From a virus, in IMG/VR virus record IMGVR_UViG_3300042556_001736, positions 1 to 55,629 of that record: 55,629 nt of DNA. The stretch is one strand, 5' to 3'. Positions 39,853 to 49,901 of the stretch are shown piece by piece. The notes under the pieces were generated by a model. The model searched no databases. It saw nothing but the letters and a program-made list of their open reading frames with translations, and was not told where the DNA came from. The position numbers and the translations under genes were made by a program. The first letter of the stretch is position 1; every line of letters starts with the position of its first letter.

Positions 39853-41313
39853 TTAAACAGCGTACGGATTGCTGACCGGCTTGGGCGGAGGCCCTGACGG
39901 TTCATCTTTTTTGGCTTGTACACTATCGAGAAGGCGTTTGTCCATCATCAGCCTGAGGGCCTGACTGGAGCTATCGACATAATCGTCGTGCTTGATGCTG
40001 CCCGGCCCGGTGTACGAGCACAGTTGGTGCAGCAGCGGATCGACCCAGTTGCGCGGCCGGCCGGGGTGCTTGGCGCTCTCGGGCAGCCAGACCATCTTGC
40101 GTGCAAAGATCGGCGAGACGATGTGCAGGCGGGTCAGCTTGTCGGCGCGGCCGGGGTTGTAGGCGTAGGCCTCGATGCCCTCGCGCTCCAGCATCTGGCG
40201 CAGGCTGATGCCTGAGCCCTTGTCCTCGATCAGCAGGATGTCGGGCTTGCGGCCGGAGGTGAGCGGCTTGCTGCTGCCGAACAGCGGCTTGATCACGGCC
40301 GCGTCGTCGTCATCGCCGTACGACACGTTCAGCTCCTTCTTCACCTTGCGGATCAGATCCGGCAGGCCGAGGTGCTCCTCCCAGCAGTCGAGCAGCATGA
40401 CGTTGTTGCGCTTCTCGTGGAAAAAGACGCCCCAGACGCTGCACGCCGTCGGGTCGGGGTCGCCCGATCGCTTGTCCATGGTCTTCTCGGTGAAGGCCGT
40501 GTCGAGCGACATGACCACCAGATCGAAGCGCGGCAGCGGCTTGTCGTGCGGCCACAGGCGGAACTGGCTGCGCTTGACGATGCCGCTCTCCTCCGGGTCG
40601 ATCAGCTCGCCGTACAGCTCCTGCCGGCCGAGCGTCGTGCCCTCGTACTGGGCGAGCTGGTCGAAGAAGCTGTCGGGCAGGTTCGCCTTGTTGTCGTACG
40701 TCGCGCCAGTGACGATCACGCGCCCGTTCTTTTTTGCAACCAGCCGCCGCACCAGCTCCTTGGGCTTGGGCGTCGTCGTCCACAGCGCCTGCGGGCGCGG
40801 GCCGAGGCGCAGGCCCATCATCGCCATGTCCCACACGTCGTCGTACATCCACGCCGCCAGCTCATCGCACCACAATCTGGTATGCTGCGGGCCGCGCAAG
40901 CGCTCGGGCTTTTCTGCAGTGAAGCCACGGATCGATGAGACGCCGCCCGTGACGTTGTACATCTCGATCACGAGGTCGGTCTTGTTGTAATTTTTTACCA
41001 GCTCTGGCGGGATGACGGACAGCAGGCCGCTCTCGCCCTCGAAGCAGGTGAACTTCACGTCCTGATAGGTGGGCGCGATGACCGCGCTGTCGAAGCCGTC
41101 GGCGTCGAGGTAGGTCGCGCGGCCCAGCCACTCTGCGCCGACGCGCGTCTTGCCGAAGCCGCGCCCGGCGAGGTAGCCCATCTCCACGAAACCGCCCGGA
41201 GACACCAGCTCGGGGATCTGGTTGGCGCGCGCCGTCTGCGCCCAGCGGTTCTGCCACAGGGCGAAGGCCTGCTGCTGGGGCGTCAGCGTCTGTAGGATGG
41301 CTGCGGCCGTCAC
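39853..41313 (-). CDS. terL: Terminase large subunit, 486 aa
   Basis: The GTG at 41313 overlaps the terS stop (GTGA). Walker A is AGRGFGKT (49-56), Walker B LWCDE (147-151), and the coupling segment is LWTTTPKP (178-185). The nuclease domain has the first Asp in SLDTAF (271), IEDKGSG (362-368) and HDDYVD (442-447). This is the full ATPase-plus-RNaseH-like nuclease architecture. It packages DNA through the portal. Confidence 0.95.
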   Translation of the reverse strand: MTAAAILQTLTPQQQAFALWQNRWAQTARANQIPELVSPGGFVEMGYLAGRGFGKTRVGAEWLGRATYLDADGFDSAVIAPTYQDVKFTCFEGESGLLSVIPPELVKNYNKTDLVIEMYNVTGGVSSIRGFTAEKPERLRGPQHTRLWCDELAAWMYDDVWDMAMMGLRLGPRPQALWTTTPKPKELVRRLVAKKNGRVIVTGATYDNKANLPDSFFDQLAQYEGTTLGRQELYGELIDPEESGIVKRSQFRLWPHDKPLPRFDLVVMSLDTAFTEKTMDKRSGDPDPTACSVWGVFFHEKRNNVMLLDCWEEHLGLPDLIRKVKKELNVSYGDDDDAAVIKPLFGSSKPLTSGRKPDILLIEDKGSGISLRQMLEREGIEAYAYNPGRADKLTRLHIVSPIFARKMVWLPESAKHPGRPRNWVDPLLHQLCSYTGPGSIKHDDYVDSSSQALRLMMDKRLLDSVQAKKDEPSGPPPKPVSNPYAV

Positions 41314-41774
41314 TTGGCCCGATCGGCGGCCTGCTTGAGCAGCACCTCGGTCAGCTCGCGCATGGCGTCGGGCGCTGCGCCCACCGCCTCGGTCTTGATC
41401 GCGCCGCCGTCCGGGCCGGTCAGCTCGGTCTGCTGCTTGCTGCCGTACTTCTTCGGGTTCCAGCACGCCAGCAGCTTGAGGCGCGTGTCCACCTGCGCCC
41501 GCTTCCACGCGACGTGGCCCGGATCGACGCGGCCCTCGACGCGCGCCGGCTCCTCGTCGATCAGGGCGAGAGCCTGCTCGGCGAGGGCGTCGCTGCCTAC
41601 GTCCCGCGCCTGCGCGTACGCGACCGCCAACGCTTCGTCTGCGGCGACCCATTTGCCCCAGTTGACCGGATGGAAATCCAGCTCACGGCCGAGCGCCGCC
41701 AGCGTCTCGCCGTGCGCGATGCGCGTCAGCACCTGCTCGATCAGCTCGGGCTTCTTCTTCGACGGGTACGGCAT
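41310..41774 (-). CDS. terS: Terminase small subunit, 154 aa
   Basis: An N-terminal helix-turn-helix (ELIEQVLTRIAHGETLAALG, then a second helix with HPVNWGKWVAAD) and the segment VDPGHVAWKRAQVDTRLKLL, which ends before NPKKYG, match Sf6-like small terminases. The ATG at 41774 has GGAAGGAG upstream. It recognises packaging DNA; the repeat-rich region 350 bases away is a candidate site. Confidence 0.85.
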   Translation of the reverse strand: MPYPSKKKPELIEQVLTRIAHGETLAALGRELDFHPVNWGKWVAADEALAVAYAQARDVGSDALAEQALALIDEEPARVEGRVDPGHVAWKRAQVDTRLKLLACWNPKKYGSKQQTELTGPDGGAIKTEAVGAAPDAMRELTEVLLKQAADRAK

Positions 41775-41854: not shown

Positions 41855-42151
41855 TCAGCGGCCGATGTTGGTGATGCCGCCGCGCGGCCCAACTTGGACG
41901 TGGGCGGTGTCGCGGCAGAAGATGGACGCCAACGTTTTTTCGTCGTTTGGCAGGCCAGCTTCGACGTACAGCGTGACATAGCTGTTGCCGTTGTAGCGGC
42001 TGATCTTGAGCGTCTTGATCTCTTTGCGATTGCCGGCGGTCTTGGCGATGATGCGCTCGGCAGCTTCGCGCTGCGCGGCGGTGAGATCCGCGAGCGTCAC
42101 GATCTTGGTGGCGGCGGCCATTTCGGCGAGGAGGGCGTCGAGGTCGGTCAT
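41855..42151 (-). CDS. Hypothetical protein under the early-type leader, first gene of the leftward arm, 98 aa
   Basis: The start at 42151 follows CGGAGACACCCA of the shared leader; an in-frame ATG at 42193 lies inside the leader and is rejected. The helical N-terminus (LTAAQREAAERIIAK) is followed by a basic beta part (LKISRYNGNSYVTLYVEAG). No family recognised. It is the only leftward gene with the TTGCAA-type element, so it is probably expressed early, unlike terS behind it. Confidence 0.72.
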   Translation of the reverse strand: MTDLDALLAEMAAATKIVTLADLTAAQREAAERIIAKTAGNRKEIKTLKISRYNGNSYVTLYVEAGLPNDEKTLASIFCRDTAHVQVGPRGGITNIGR

Positions 42152-42206
42152 TGGGTGTCTCCGTTTGCTGATAATTGCTTCTCTCACATGCAACGCACCG
42201 TTGCAA
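42152..42206 (-). promoter_or_regulatory. Early promoter/leader element 4 (leftward copy)
   Basis: On the minus strand TTGCAA (42206-42201) and TTGCAT (42193-42188) are 13 bases apart. The leader holds TTATCAGCAAACGGAGACAC before the ATG at 42151. It mirrors element 5 across the repeat-rich region. Confidence 0.7.
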
Positions 42207-42222
42207 GCACTTTTTTACGAGG

Positions 42223-42492
42223 TGCAGCACGAGGCGCTGCAGCATCTGCAGCACGACGCATCATGCTGCAGCATCAGCTTCCGGGGCTGGTCATCACACC
42301 ACGGATTTCTGCAGCGCAGCACAGCATCTGCTCGGTGCAGCATTTGCAGCAGTGGGGGCCACCCCTAAGGGGGTGTCTCCCCTTGCTGCTGCATAAATGC
42401 TGCATTACCCGACCTGCACCATTTGCAGCATGACGCAGCATGCTGCTAATGCTGCATGCTGCAGGGGGATGAAAAAAATTACAAATGCTGCA
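42223..42492. repeat. Array of TGCAGCA/TGCTGCA heptamers (origin, partition or packaging candidate)
   Basis: TGCAGCA occurs at 42223, 42238, 42247, 42267, 42336, 42345 and 42424; its complement TGCTGCA at 42264, 42387, 42398, 42450, 42457 and 42486. Pairs spaced 9 bases (42238/42247 and 42336/42345) look like iterons. The array fills the non-coding gap where the two transcription arms diverge, next to terS and its upstream gene. A hairpin (CACCCC/GGGGTG at about 42360-42375) lies inside. No gene is seen here. Confidence 0.75.
42372..42392 (-). other. Vestigial minus-strand leader fragment
   Basis: On the minus strand this reads CAGCAGCAAGGGGAGACACCC, minus the final base of that run being shared with a hairpin. 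It has the CAGCAA and GGAGACACC parts of the shared leader but no start codon and no TTGCAA pair. Probably a decayed copy of the element within the repeat array. Confidence 0.4.
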
Positions 42493-42501
42493 AATTAGGT
42501 G

Positions 42502-42563
42502 TTGCAACCTCACGTTGGATATGAGAGAAGAGGTCATCAGCAACGACCAACCGGAGACACCCA
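42502..42563 (+). promoter_or_regulatory. Early promoter/leader element 5, start of the rightward arm
   Basis: TTGCAA (42502-42507) and TTGGAT (42515-42520) are 13 bases apart. ATCAGCAAC lies at 42536-42544 and CGGAGACACCCA precedes the ATG at 42564. It would drive the run of small early genes to about 45.9 kb. Confidence 0.7.
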
Positions 42564-42785
42564 ATGACCATCACCAAGCTCTACACCTCCTCCTTCACCG
42601 GTGCCAACAAGCGCCCCGCCAGCGGTGACGTGGTGTTCGAAGACGGCAAATCCTACGGCTGGCTGCTTCACCCCTACACCGGAGAGATCGTCCTCTTCAA
42701 TTATCGCAAGGTGGCTGGCACCAGCGTTCTGGCCAGCTTCAAGTCGCCCAAGCGTTCCGCCGCCATCGCCGCCGCCATCGCCTGA
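42564..42785 (+). CDS. Small early protein, 73 aa
   Basis: First gene of the rightward arm. A beta-rich core (VVFEDGKSYGWLLHPYTGEI) is followed by a basic alanine-rich end. The start follows the shared leader. No family recognised. Confidence 0.7.
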   Translation: MTITKLYTSSFTGANKRPASGDVVFEDGKSYGWLLHPYTGEIVLFNYRKVAGTSVLASFKSPKRSAAIAAAIA

Positions 42786-44042: not shown

Positions 44043-44155
44043 CGGGCGACAACTGGCTGGCTATAGCCATCCTCGCCCTCATGGCCACGGCCGTCTGGAT
44101 CATCGTCCGGCGGCCGCCCACCACCCCGCAAGATATTGAGGACACCGACTGGTGA
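44039..44155 (+). CDS. Tiny membrane protein, 38 aa
   Basis: ATGA overlap at the start and GTGA overlap at the end. One membrane helix (WLAIAILALMATAVWIIV) and an acidic tail (TPQDIEDTDW). It may act with the membrane protein before it; function unknown. Confidence 0.65.
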   Translation: MTGDNWLAIAILALMATAVWIIVRRPPTTPQDIEDTDW

Positions 44156-44586
44156 CTACAGACATCCGACTTAACGCGCTGATCCGCGCCCTCGACGAGC
44201 GACTGAAGACGGTCAGCCTCGACGATGTGGAGTTGAGCGTCCGCTCACTGAAGGCGCTCAAGGACTGCGGCGTACGCACCCTGCACGAGGCCCAGATGGC
44301 GCTGATCAACCGCCAACTGCACCGGCAGTCCGGCATAGGCCCCAAGGCCGTCCGAGAGGTCGAGGAGATCATCTTCAACGTCACCGCCGCCCTGCCGCCA
44401 CCGGCCGAGGTGGCGAGGCAGCAGCGCCGCCTTGAGCTCAACAGCCTACTGCTGGCCTACGAGACGCACGTGCTGGCGCTGTACGCCTACCAGAGCGCCG
44501 ACGTGGCCGACCCCGAGGGTTCGATTGCCAAGCGCAAAGTATCAATTGAGAAAGTTCGCGAGTTGATCCTCGCTTTCGCAGACTGA
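44152..44586 (+). CDS. RNA polymerase alpha-CTD-like protein, 144 aa
   Basis: Residues 24-74 align with the alpha C-terminal domain: DDVELSVRSLKALKDCGVRT, then GIGPKAVREVEEII. Counterparts of E. coli R265, G296, K298 and E302 of the DNA-binding determinant are R31, G63, K65 and E69; N268 and S299 are replaced. A C-terminal helical tail follows. No alpha N-terminal dimer domain is present. It could bind promoter DNA or sigma/activators and redirect host polymerase (inference). GTG start with GTGA overlap. Confidence 0.7.
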   Translation: MTTDIRLNALIRALDERLKTVSLDDVELSVRSLKALKDCGVRTLHEAQMALINRQLHRQSGIGPKAVREVEEIIFNVTAALPPPAEVARQQRRLELNSLLLAYETHVLALYAYQSADVADPEGSIAKRKVSIEKVRELILAFAD

Positions 44587-47447: not shown

Positions 47448-47617
47448 TCGCCGAGGCACGCGAGGCCTTCGCCCAGCGCGATCGGCTGCAGGCCGAGCTG
47501 GACGCCGTCAACGCACGGCTGGTCAAGCTCAAGTCGCAATACATGCAGGAGACGCACATCTGGGGCATCCGGGATGAGCGCTTCCGTCACGAGATCAACA
47601 AACTGGAAGACGCATGA
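47444..47617 (+). CDS. Small coiled-coil protein, 57 aa
   Basis: ATGA overlaps before and after. One coiled coil (AFAQRDRLQAELDAVNARL) with a basic end. Possibly forms a heteromer with the preceding protein. Function unknown. Confidence 0.68.
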   Translation: MIAEAREAFAQRDRLQAELDAVNARLVKLKSQYMQETHIWGIRDERFRHEINKLEDA

Positions 47618-47853
47618 CAAACCGAATTGACGCCATCAATCTCGCCATCGCCAAGGGCGGCGGCATCGTCCGCTTCGCCAAGAGCATGGGCGTGTCGCAT
47701 CAGGCGGTCTACGCGTGGAAGCGCAGAGGCTGGGTGCCGGTGGAGAAGGCTGTTGTGATCGAGGCCGCCTACGGCGTCCCGCGCGATGACCTGATGAGCC
47801 CCGACCTCGTCCGCGCGCTTGCTGCCCCGAGTGCCAGCGCCGACCTGCTGTAA
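47614..47853 (+). CDS. YdaS/Cro-like helix-turn-helix regulator, 79 aa
   Basis: RFAKSMGVSHQAVYAWKRRG followed by WVPVEKAVVIEAAYG and RDDLMSPDLV is the YdaS/Cro-type HTH layout (recognition helix S-H-Q-A-V-Y-A-W). Such proteins repress or activate phage promoters. It is the only clear small HTH regulator in the window and so the prime candidate to read the 13-base-spaced TTG boxes. ATGA overlap with the gene before. Confidence 0.82.
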   Translation: MTNRIDAINLAIAKGGGIVRFAKSMGVSHQAVYAWKRRGWVPVEKAVVIEAAYGVPRDDLMSPDLVRALAAPSASADLL

Positions 47854-47873
47854 TATCCGTGGAGGACGACGAC

Positions 47874-49901
47874 ATGGCCAGCGTCAGGGCAATTGCGCCC
47901 AAAATCCGCGCCGTCGAGGTGCCGGAGGAACTGCGGATGGTGCCGGGCTGGCTCATCTGGCGTTTCGAGCAGTATCCCGGCGAGGTCAAACCGCGCAAAG
48001 TCCCGTATTGGACGGACGGCACGATCCGCCACGGCCAACAGGGCTCCCCGACCGATCGCGCACGCCTGACCACGTTTGTCGCAGCGCGAGCTGCGGCGGC
48101 GCGCATGGGCTACGACGGCGTCGGCTTTGCGCCACTGCCCGACTTTGGGTACACCTTCCTCGACTTCGACAACTGCGTCGGGCCGAACGATGAGATCGCG
48201 CCCGAGATTGAGCGCATTGTCGCCCGCACCTACGCCGAGTTCAGCCCGAGCGGCAAAGGCATCCGCGCCGCCCTGAAGGGCAATCTGGGCAACCACAAGA
48301 GCCCCTCGACGCCGGAGCAGTTCGGCTTCGAGACGTTCTCCACGTCAATGTTCGTGACATTCACAGGCAGCATTCTGCCCGCCTGCGAGCTGATCGGCCT
48401 TGCGAACACCGTGGCCGAGGTTGACCAGCACGTCATTGACCTGTGCAACCGCCGCTTCGGCCGCTCCCTTCTTAACAACGTCATCGACCCCGACGACTTC
48501 ATGGCCGGGCGCGAGCCCAAACTGGGCCTGACCGTCGAGCGCATGGCGGAGCTGGTCAACAGCCTTGACCCAAACATGGGCCGGGAGGACTGGATCAAGG
48601 TCGGGATGGCCCTGCACCACGAGTGCGACGGCGACGACACCGGCTTCGAGCTGTGGGACGAATGGTCGCAGGACGGCTACACCTATGTCAGCACCGAGGC
48701 CATGCGCGGCCAGTGGGACAGCTTCGAGCGGCGCAAGGGATCGAACCGCAGGCAAGTCACAATGGCCAGCGTGATCAAGATGGCCAAGGAGGCCAACCGC
48801 GCAGCCGAGCCACCCAGCCGCGAGGAGGTGCTCGCCAAGGCCGAGGCGATCATGGCTGAGCTGCCGACGAAGAGCCTCGGCCGCTTCGGCCCGGTGCCGA
48901 TCTACGACCTGACCCAGCGCGAGCCGATGGGCTGGCTGATCAAGGGCGTGCTGCCCCGCGCGGAGCTGGGCATCCTGTTTGGCGCGTCGGGCAGCGGCAA
49001 GACATTCGTCGCCCTCGACCTCGCCTTCGCGATCGCGCGCGGCAACGCGTGGCGCACCCGGCGCACGGTCAAGGCGCGGGTGGTGATCATCGCCGCAGAA
49101 GGCGGCTCCGGTCTGGGCAAGCGCGCTCAGGCCTACGCCCAGCACCACGGTTTCGACCTGCACGGCCTGCACGGCCTGCACGTCATCACGGCCGCACCGA
49201 ACTTTCTGGACGGTGACGACATCTCCGAAGTGATTGCCGAGATCAAGCACCTCGGCGAGATCGATCTGATCATCATCGACACGCTGGCGCAGGTGACGCC
49301 GGGCGCGAACGAAAACACCAGCGAGGACATGGGCCGGGCGCTGGGCAACATCAACCTGCTGCACGACGCCACCGGTGCCATGAACCTCGTCGTCCACCAC
49401 GCCGGCAAGGATCTCAGCAAAGGCTCGCGCGGCTGGTCGGGCCTGAAGGCGGCCGCAGACGTGCAGATCGAGGTGCTGCGCCACGAGAACGGCGACCGCG
49501 AGATCGTGATCGAGAAGATGAAGGACGGCGAGGACGGCCTGCGCTGGGGCTTCAAGCTGGAGACCGTCCTGCTGGGCCTCGACGACGATGGTGACGACAT
49601 CACGAGCTGCGTCGCGGTCGAGGTCGAGATCCGCCCGCCGGCGAGCACCGACGACAAGAAGGGCGTGAAGCGTCGCGGCCGCCTTGAGACCCACCTGCTG
49701 GAGGTGATGACCCTGTTCCCGGCGGATGCAGTTATTCGCGCCGAGGATCTGATCCGCAAGGCTTGCGATACTTTACCACCACCCGAGGCCGGCAAGCGCG
49801 ACATCCGTCGCCAGTCTGTTGTCCGCGCAATTCAGGCACTTAGCAAGGAGAAGGACGGCCCACTGCGGATGGAAAACGGGATTGTAATTTTTTACGAATA
49901 A
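47874..49901 (+). CDS. Primase-helicase (archaeo-eukaryotic-type primase plus RepA-like ATPase), 675 aa
   Basis: The N-terminal primase-like part has VPGWLIWRFEQ, FLDFDNC (95-101) and EFSPSGKGI (122-130). A PriCT-like segment follows near 228-285 (LDPNMGREDWIKVGMALHHE). A RepA/AAA_25 ATPase comes next, with Walker A FGASGSGKT (369-377), Walker B LIIIDT (465-470) and VHHAGKD. I choose the ATG at 47874, which has GGAGG eight bases upstream. It probably primes and unwinds DNA for the family A polymerase. Confidence 0.87.
   Translation: MASVRAIAPKIRAVEVPEELRMVPGWLIWRFEQYPGEVKPRKVPYWTDGTIRHGQQGSPTDRARLTTFVAARAAAARMGYDGVGFAPLPDFGYTFLDFDNCVGPNDEIAPEIERIVARTYAEFSPSGKGIRAALKGNLGNHKSPSTPEQFGFETFSTSMFVTFTGSILPACELIGLANTVAEVDQHVIDLCNRRFGRSLLNNVIDPDDFMAGREPKLGLTVERMAELVNSLDPNMGREDWIKVGMALHHECDGDDTGFELWDEWSQDGYTYVSTEAMRGQWDSFERRKGSNRRQVTMASVIKMAKEANRAAEPPSREEVLAKAEAIMAELPTKSLGRFGPVPIYDLTQREPMGWLIKGVLPRAELGILFGASGSGKTFVALDLAFAIARGNAWRTRRTVKARVVIIAAEGGSGLGKRAQAYAQHHGFDLHGLHGLHVITAAPNFLDGDDISEVIAEIKHLGEIDLIIIDTLAQVTPGANENTSEDMGRALGNINLLHDATGAMNLVVHHAGKDLSKGSRGWSGLKAAADVQIEVLRHENGDREIVIEKMKDGEDGLRWGFKLETVLLGLDDDGDDITSCVAVEVEIRPPASTDDKKGVKRRGRLETHLLEVMTLFPADAVIRAEDLIRKACDTLPPPEAGKRDIRRQSVVRAIQALSKEKDGPLRMENGIVIFYE

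Follow-up and report, generated by a model that had tools for sequence, protein, structure and literature searches.

Thirteen heptamer repeats between divergent phage gene arms most likely dock the C-terminal tail of the phage's own primase-helicase at the start of replication

The thirteen copies of TGCAGCA/TGCTGCA found between the two divergent gene arms of the virus record IMGVR_UViG_3300042556_001736 (55,629 bases, analysed whole and hereafter called the window) are most likely docking sites, at the start of replication, for the DNA-gripping tail of the phage's own primase-helicase, and repeat and protein have changed together several times among related phages. Judged from sequence comparison, it is highly probable that the winged-helix domain at the C-terminus of this enzyme binds the array, and probable that the array represents the clustered iterons of a phage replication origin. 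The copies are arranged as follows:

42223-42492, no strand assigned: TGCAGCA/TGCTGCA array, seven direct and six inverted copies, proposed origin iterons
42223, 42238, 42247, 42267, 42336, 42345 and 42424, plus strand: TGCAGCA copies of the array
42264, 42387, 42398, 42450, 42457 and 42486, minus strand: TGCTGCA copies of the array

The window contains 30 copies of the heptamer in total, compared with a mean of 12.8 (sd 3.4) in shuffled sequence and with none of 100 shuffles reaching 30, and 13 of these fall within 42223-42492, exactly where a sequence-only reading of this DNA had placed thirteen heptamers. Across the 412 bases from 42152 to 42563, dinucleotide shuffling gave a mean of 0.83 copies and a maximum of 4 in 2000 rounds, and when non-overlapping copies of any heptamer are counted, 1000 shuffled gaps yield at most 5 against the 12 observed. 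The 9-base periodicity described for two pairs is also real (42238/42247 and 42336/42345). A cluster of short repeats beyond chance in a non-coding region is a feature of iteron origins, and the array is such a cluster; improbable ORFs overlap the gap, so its earlier description as the only large non-coding gap is a matter of gene calling. Across the array and 25 bases on either side there are 21 TGCANC hexamers, with base 5 being G in 15, C in 3, and A in 3. Among the matches listed by full-text searches of open papers there was no description of these arrays, which is weak evidence.

The gap and its borders hold several further elements:

41310-41774, minus strand: terS, small terminase subunit, Sf6-like, not the motif determinant
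41855-42151, minus strand: 98-aa gene left of the array, not universal among relatives
42146-42167, minus strand: left start-codon leader GGAGACACCCAATG, mirror of 42548-42569, arms 95% complementary
42165-42206, minus strand: left leader, mirror image of 42502-42543, arms 76% complementary
42340-42400, no strand assigned: nested mid-array palindrome whose outer stem contains heptamers, single-strand fold
42468-42498, no strand assigned: A+T-rich tract at the right end of the array, among the most A+T-rich 30-mers of the window
42502-42543, plus strand: right leader, mirror image of 42165-42206
42548-42569, plus strand: right start-codon leader, mirror of 42146-42167

The mirror-image leaders noted previously are borne out in both their 42-base and their 22-base arms. 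As a single strand, the palindrome at 42340-42400 folds with -22 kcal/mol (z -5.5), a value equalled by none of 200 shuffles, and the A+T richness of 42468-42498 is matched by only 0.034% of the 30-mers of the window, giving the repeats the adjoining A+T-rich region found in iteron origins. The array regions of the 17 contigs examined have a GC content of 47–56%, compared with 64% for the window genome. The minus-strand genes left of the gap are the 98-aa gene, terS, and terL, the true start of the last being placed at ~41313 from the extent of the matches of its relatives, whilst the early arm to the right includes an HTH gene and the primase-helicase. Also in the window, 44152-44586 encodes a predicted protein matching the RNA polymerase alpha C-terminal domain (E 6e-6), possibly only through a helix-hairpin-helix fold. 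Near the right end of the arrays a unit recurs, consisting of a heptamer, CGAGTAA..., an A-/T-tract, and an inverted heptamer ~30 bases on:

L164 5822-5857, L119 5134-5165 and L142 4145-4180: recurring right-end unit

The proposed initiator and the gene upstream of it lie in the right arm:

47614-47853, plus strand: Cro/YdaS-like HTH protein, upstream of the primase-helicase, candidate binder, unsupported
47859-49901, plus strand: primase-helicase, PriCT_2 + AAA_25, proposed initiator
49641-49898, plus strand: C-terminal winged-helix domain of the primase-helicase (fold model), proposed heptamer reader
49803-49805, plus strand: codon of residue 649 (Ile in the window), covarying with heptamer base 5

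The primase-helicase matches AAA_25 with an E-value of 1.1e-37 (Pfam), its PHROG matches are primase or polymerase/primase, and its closest named helicase matches carry the name 'helicase RepA family'; the Pfam scan found PriCT_2 in this protein, and neither TOPRIM nor an SF3 helicase family. The C-terminal domain has no match in Pfam or PHROGs. AlphaFold2 models it as a winged helix, in the order helix, strand, helix, helix, two strands, with a mean pLDDT of 79; the blocks from residue 31 onwards score at least 85. Comparing a sequence profile with solved structures produced no useful match (best E 0.054), and the matches listed by Foldseek against the PDB were only generic winged helices (best E 0.13), with the domain of phage P4 absent among them and likewise among those listed by VIA-align (Z up to 8.8). 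BFVD contributed two matches below 0.001, to proteins 692 and 686 residues long, of which one is unnamed and the other 'AAA domain containing'. Four of 50,697 records (E up to 0.01) account for the only isolated phages found with the domain.

A terL search yielded 80 viral loci, 13 of which have at least 10 TGCAGCA within 300 bases, many of the others being fragments or falling short of the gap; close relatives thus do carry the array, the absence of which the sequence-only reading had named as grounds for abandoning its view. At the same position other loci have equally dense arrays, often of a different heptamer and mostly in both orientations, arrays in relatives being detected as heptamers that occur in both orientations:

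L015, L017, L019, L021 and L045: GCACCAC array
L049, L054 and L068: TGCAACA array
L059, L060, L062 and L065: TGCAACG array
L030: TACAACG array
L051: TGTCACA array
L080: AGGGTCA array
L088: GGCGTAC array

The right arms of L164 and L068/L199 are 88–92% identical over most of their length and their arrays align site by site, with base 5 shifted from G to A. From L164 to L199, 10 of 14 G sites are now A, one is T, and three are unchanged, whilst other site bases changed at 12 of 79 positions (p = 1e-5). From L142 to L199 all 13 G sites are now A, with 7 of 82 other site bases changed (p = 6e-9, all base-5 cells counted), and between L147 and L199 base 5 changed at 12 of 14 sites and other site bases at 11 of 88 (p = 8e-8). 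L146, also of the A class, differs from L164 at base 5 in 9 of 14 sites (p = 0.001). The same-class pair L164/L147 retains G at 13 of 14 sites, and L164/L139, where the C-rich array aligns poorly, has no significant base-5 excess.

Residue 649 lies, in the predicted fold, directly before the third helix of the winged helix (the recognition helix), in a segment reading GKRD-Ile-RRQ or GKRD-Thr-RRQ. With array classes set by base-5 counts, all 706 primase columns were scanned in 21 contigs in which no free domain copy had been detected, 16 of the G class and 5 of the A class, a set that includes near-duplicates (the identical L099 and L102; L142/L147; L115/L118). Residue 649 is Ile in 16/16 contigs with G arrays and Thr in 5/5 with A arrays, and is the only one of the 706 columns with one residue per class in these 21 contigs; the residues of the two classes are also disjoint at column 463 (Lys versus Arg/Asn/Gln). 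The codon of residue 463 is at 49245-49247 of the window, inside the AAA_25 helicase part. As the Ile/Thr pattern was first spotted by eye and the paralogue-free subset picked afterwards, the probabilities are conditional. On a tree built from residues 1-590, four changes occur in the base class and four in residue 649, with all four independent pairs in agreement (sign test only p = 0.125), and among 300 random labellings with four changes, 4 yield any disjoint column and none a one-residue-per-class column. Left out of the 21 were contigs with a free domain copy (L103, L104, L121, L122, L139, L171, L175, L188, L244), mixed arrays (L109, L112, L154), other or weak motifs (L176, L198, L200), or a missing primase C-terminus (L100, L101, L111, L116), as well as L140, whose array was found later.

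Outside this set, L140, with Ile in both copies and base-5 counts of G 6 and T 3, fits the rule, as does L171/L047, with Thr in both copies and counts of A 7, C 2, and G 2, and the arrays of L121 and L139 (both Thr, Thr) are C-rich, i.e. not G. In L103 and L104 the primase has Ile and the free copy Thr, with mixed arrays (A 4, G 4, C 2, T 1-2), and the same residue combination in L244 accompanies an array of TGCACC and TGCAAC; copies that differ alongside arrays that are mixed or non-G were counted in favour of the winged-helix domain reading the heptamers. The G plurality is weak in L109, L112, and L154 (Ile), L122 has too few sites, and in L175 (Val, Val) G and A are level at 5 each. Two loci break the rule, with L188 carrying Thr in both copies and yet G at 11 of 13 sites, and the distant L248 carrying Ile with an array mostly of A and T. 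Residue 649 would therefore be a main but not the sole determinant, and the Ile/Thr rule holds only within the nearer clade.

The link between array and enzyme extends to distant relatives. Scanning bacterial genomes yielded 20 loci, several of them proteobacterial (Sphingorhabdus, Magnetospirillum, Novosphingobium), and the 350 bases behind the primase gene were examined in these and in three viral loci, with 200 single-base shuffles each. The best heptamer count exceeded all 200 shuffles in 12 of the 23, with L194 and L195 having the same array and L254 and L255 looking related:

L249, L250, L251, L254, L255, L256, L257, L258, L259, L261, L194 and L195: distant loci with an array behind the primase gene

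No clear array was found behind the primase gene in the remaining 11 (L248, L252, L253, L260, L262-L267, L193), L248 having its array upstream instead. The heptamers of the distant loci include TGAAGCA, TGCACCA, TCCCGAA, and CGCATCA, and several are accompanied by a GC hairpin resembling that of the window. The position behind the primase-helicase gene argues that the array belongs with this enzyme rather than with the terminase. In L194 (11125-11361) and L195 (4136-4372), a very distant primase-helicase gene is immediately followed by ten CGCATCA in both orientations.

Many genomes encode the last 85 residues of the primase-helicase a second time, as a free gene that mostly sits beside the array. 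No free gene was detected in the window or in many array-bearing relatives, and there the motif still follows the primase-helicase. Some free genes have longer N-terminal parts (L104 4038-4625, L188 454-1080, L140 2408-3031, and others), that of L188 giving a weak zinc-ribbon match below the cutoff (E 0.016).

Of the three binders proposed by the sequence-only reading, the primase-helicase is the best supported, and neither the HTH protein nor TerS fared well. The HTH protein at 47614-47853, initially suspected, has 0/79 columns that separate the motif classes, and its copies in L164 and L068 are nearly identical, with the same recognition-helix letters and different motifs. The 98-aa gene, gene B, and gene C beside the array were not found in most array-bearing relatives. 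In TerL, 0/496 columns separate the G and A classes (13 G and 4 A rows). L072 and L084 (4249-6374) have TerS and the first part of TerL swapped as a block, the remaining TerL being close to that of the window, a block exchange that represents module recombination at the terminase genes.

That reading had also left the role of the array open between an iteron origin, a partition site, and a terminase site, of which the iteron origin is favoured by the covariation of the motif with the primase-helicase tail and by arrays directly behind that gene in distant relatives, and the terminase site is disfavoured. Cumulative GC skew, proposed as a check, has its extremes in the window near 14-15 kb and 35 kb, away from the array, and lends an origin no support. 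A terminase recognition (pac) site bound by TerS would suit the location of terS ~450 bases from the array, and the terminal repeat annotated in phage KcrB (L196 2864-3218), 2,940 bases long, stops at 2940, within the homologous divergent gap and 15 bases before the first TAGYCGC; end repeats are absent from the window. However, the TGCAGCA array accompanies TerS proteins of 99%, 82–83%, and 47–49% identity to that of the window and, once, a TerS of another PHROG family, whilst TerS proteins 96–99% identical in L011 and L041 go with mixed arrays, and distant arrays of the same kind follow the primase-helicase gene. As the TerS family has been replaced without a change of motif, a terminase site is therefore very improbable. 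That the array is a parS-like site serving partition or another form of maintenance in a plasmid-like prophage is scarcely credible; partition sites, too, can have clustered short direct and inverted repeats, but no ParB-like family was found among the part of the right-arm genes scanned, and the motif tracks the primase-helicase.

An operator cluster, at which either the free copy or the primase-helicase itself acts as a winged-helix regulator of two divergent units without any origin, is unlikely, with the placement of the array between divergent genes with mirror-image leaders and the free winged-helix gene beside it in many relatives both speaking for such a role. Against this, the distant arrays sit behind the primase-helicase gene and not between divergent leaders, the motif follows the primase-helicase even where the free gene is undetected, as in the window, and a scan for one promoter type found no sigma-70-type promoter in 42050-42700. 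Operator and origin roles can also coexist.

Under the preferred reading, that of an iteron origin served by the primase-helicase, each heptamer would be bound by the C-terminal winged-helix domain, and the recognition helix that starts right after residue 649 would contribute to reading base 5 of TGCANC. Several domains of a presumably oligomeric primase-helicase would occupy the direct and inverted copies, the A+T-rich tract, a possible opening region, would open, and the helicase would be loaded, with forks departing towards both arms. The mid-array hairpin may act in priming or loading, and the free domain copy of many relatives may be a competitor at the same sites or a regulator.

Parts of this scheme resemble known systems. 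The alpha protein of phage P4 is an SF3 helicase, and Cnr, a second winged-helix protein of P4, pairs with it. Alpha is described in the available text of PMC4234260 as a multifunctional primase-helicase whose winged-helix domain binds origin repeats. The likeness to P4 origin/crr and alpha lies in a winged-helix domain within the primase-helicase, here a predicted fold; P4, in contrast, has a TOPRIM-type primase, and the window protein PriCT_2 and AAA_25. Because helicase and primase types differ, the window protein is not classed as a member of P4 alpha, and no sequence relation between the two winged-helix domains was found by profile search or among the Foldseek matches listed. By analogy, the best reading is that the array would be an iteron origin working like that of P4 with a different enzyme.

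The iterons of RSF1010 are longer. The system combines iterons, a RepA-type helicase, and stem-loops used in priming (available text of PMC4234260), and the window shares with RSF1010/IncQ the RepA-type helicase (AAA_25; 'helicase RepA family protein' matches) and, as proposed here, the iterons and a stem-loop that may serve in priming. RepC, RepA, and RepB' are three proteins there, whereas the window has one fused protein, with no separate iteron-binding RepC identified among the part of the window genes scanned.

For covariation and its selective cause, the RepA/origin modules of the PLE satellites of Vibrio are a precedent by analogy, with the RepA DNA-binding domain and origin iterons covarying and exchanged as a module, and with an origin-directed phage nuclease favouring switching, according to the available portion of PMC8263062. 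As described there, PLEs differ in having RepA_N initiators, three iterons of about 30 bp, and no primase-helicase fusion, and in changing by module exchange, whereas the relatives of the window also change by point changes at orthologous sites.

Metagenomes are almost the only source for this phage group (four isolates found), and our reading would give it a likely origin and initiator, together with a reader domain that neither Pfam nor PHROGs contains. Whole arrays, each with about a dozen sites, shifted by one same base while one recognition-helix residue changed, and the joint change in specificity of a DNA-binding protein and its many sites is an old question that is directly testable here in vitro. 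More tentatively, the initiator may be self-contained, comprising primase, RepA-like helicase, and winged-helix reader, and common to a large phage/prophage group, with 7-base iterons switching fast and in concert via a few recognition-helix residues, free copies in the role of competitor or guard, and the switching driven by rivals or parasites that attack the origin. If true, this would offer a natural series for deciphering the winged-helix DNA code. The type of origin could also bear on how co-infecting phages compete and on defences directed at the origin, PLE/ICP1 being an example (available portion of PMC8263062).

The only isolated phages found with the C-terminal domain are the Caulobacter phages RW, KcrB, RLK, and GB2A (proposed Riverwalkvirus). 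The phrase 'origin of replication' is absent from the available portion of PMC11053796. As in the window, the terminase genes of these phages lie to the left and the early arm to the right of a divergent gap, with an HTH gene upstream of the primase; they differ in that the primase is 51% identical and the gap array is weak, with four direct and one inverted TAGYCGC.
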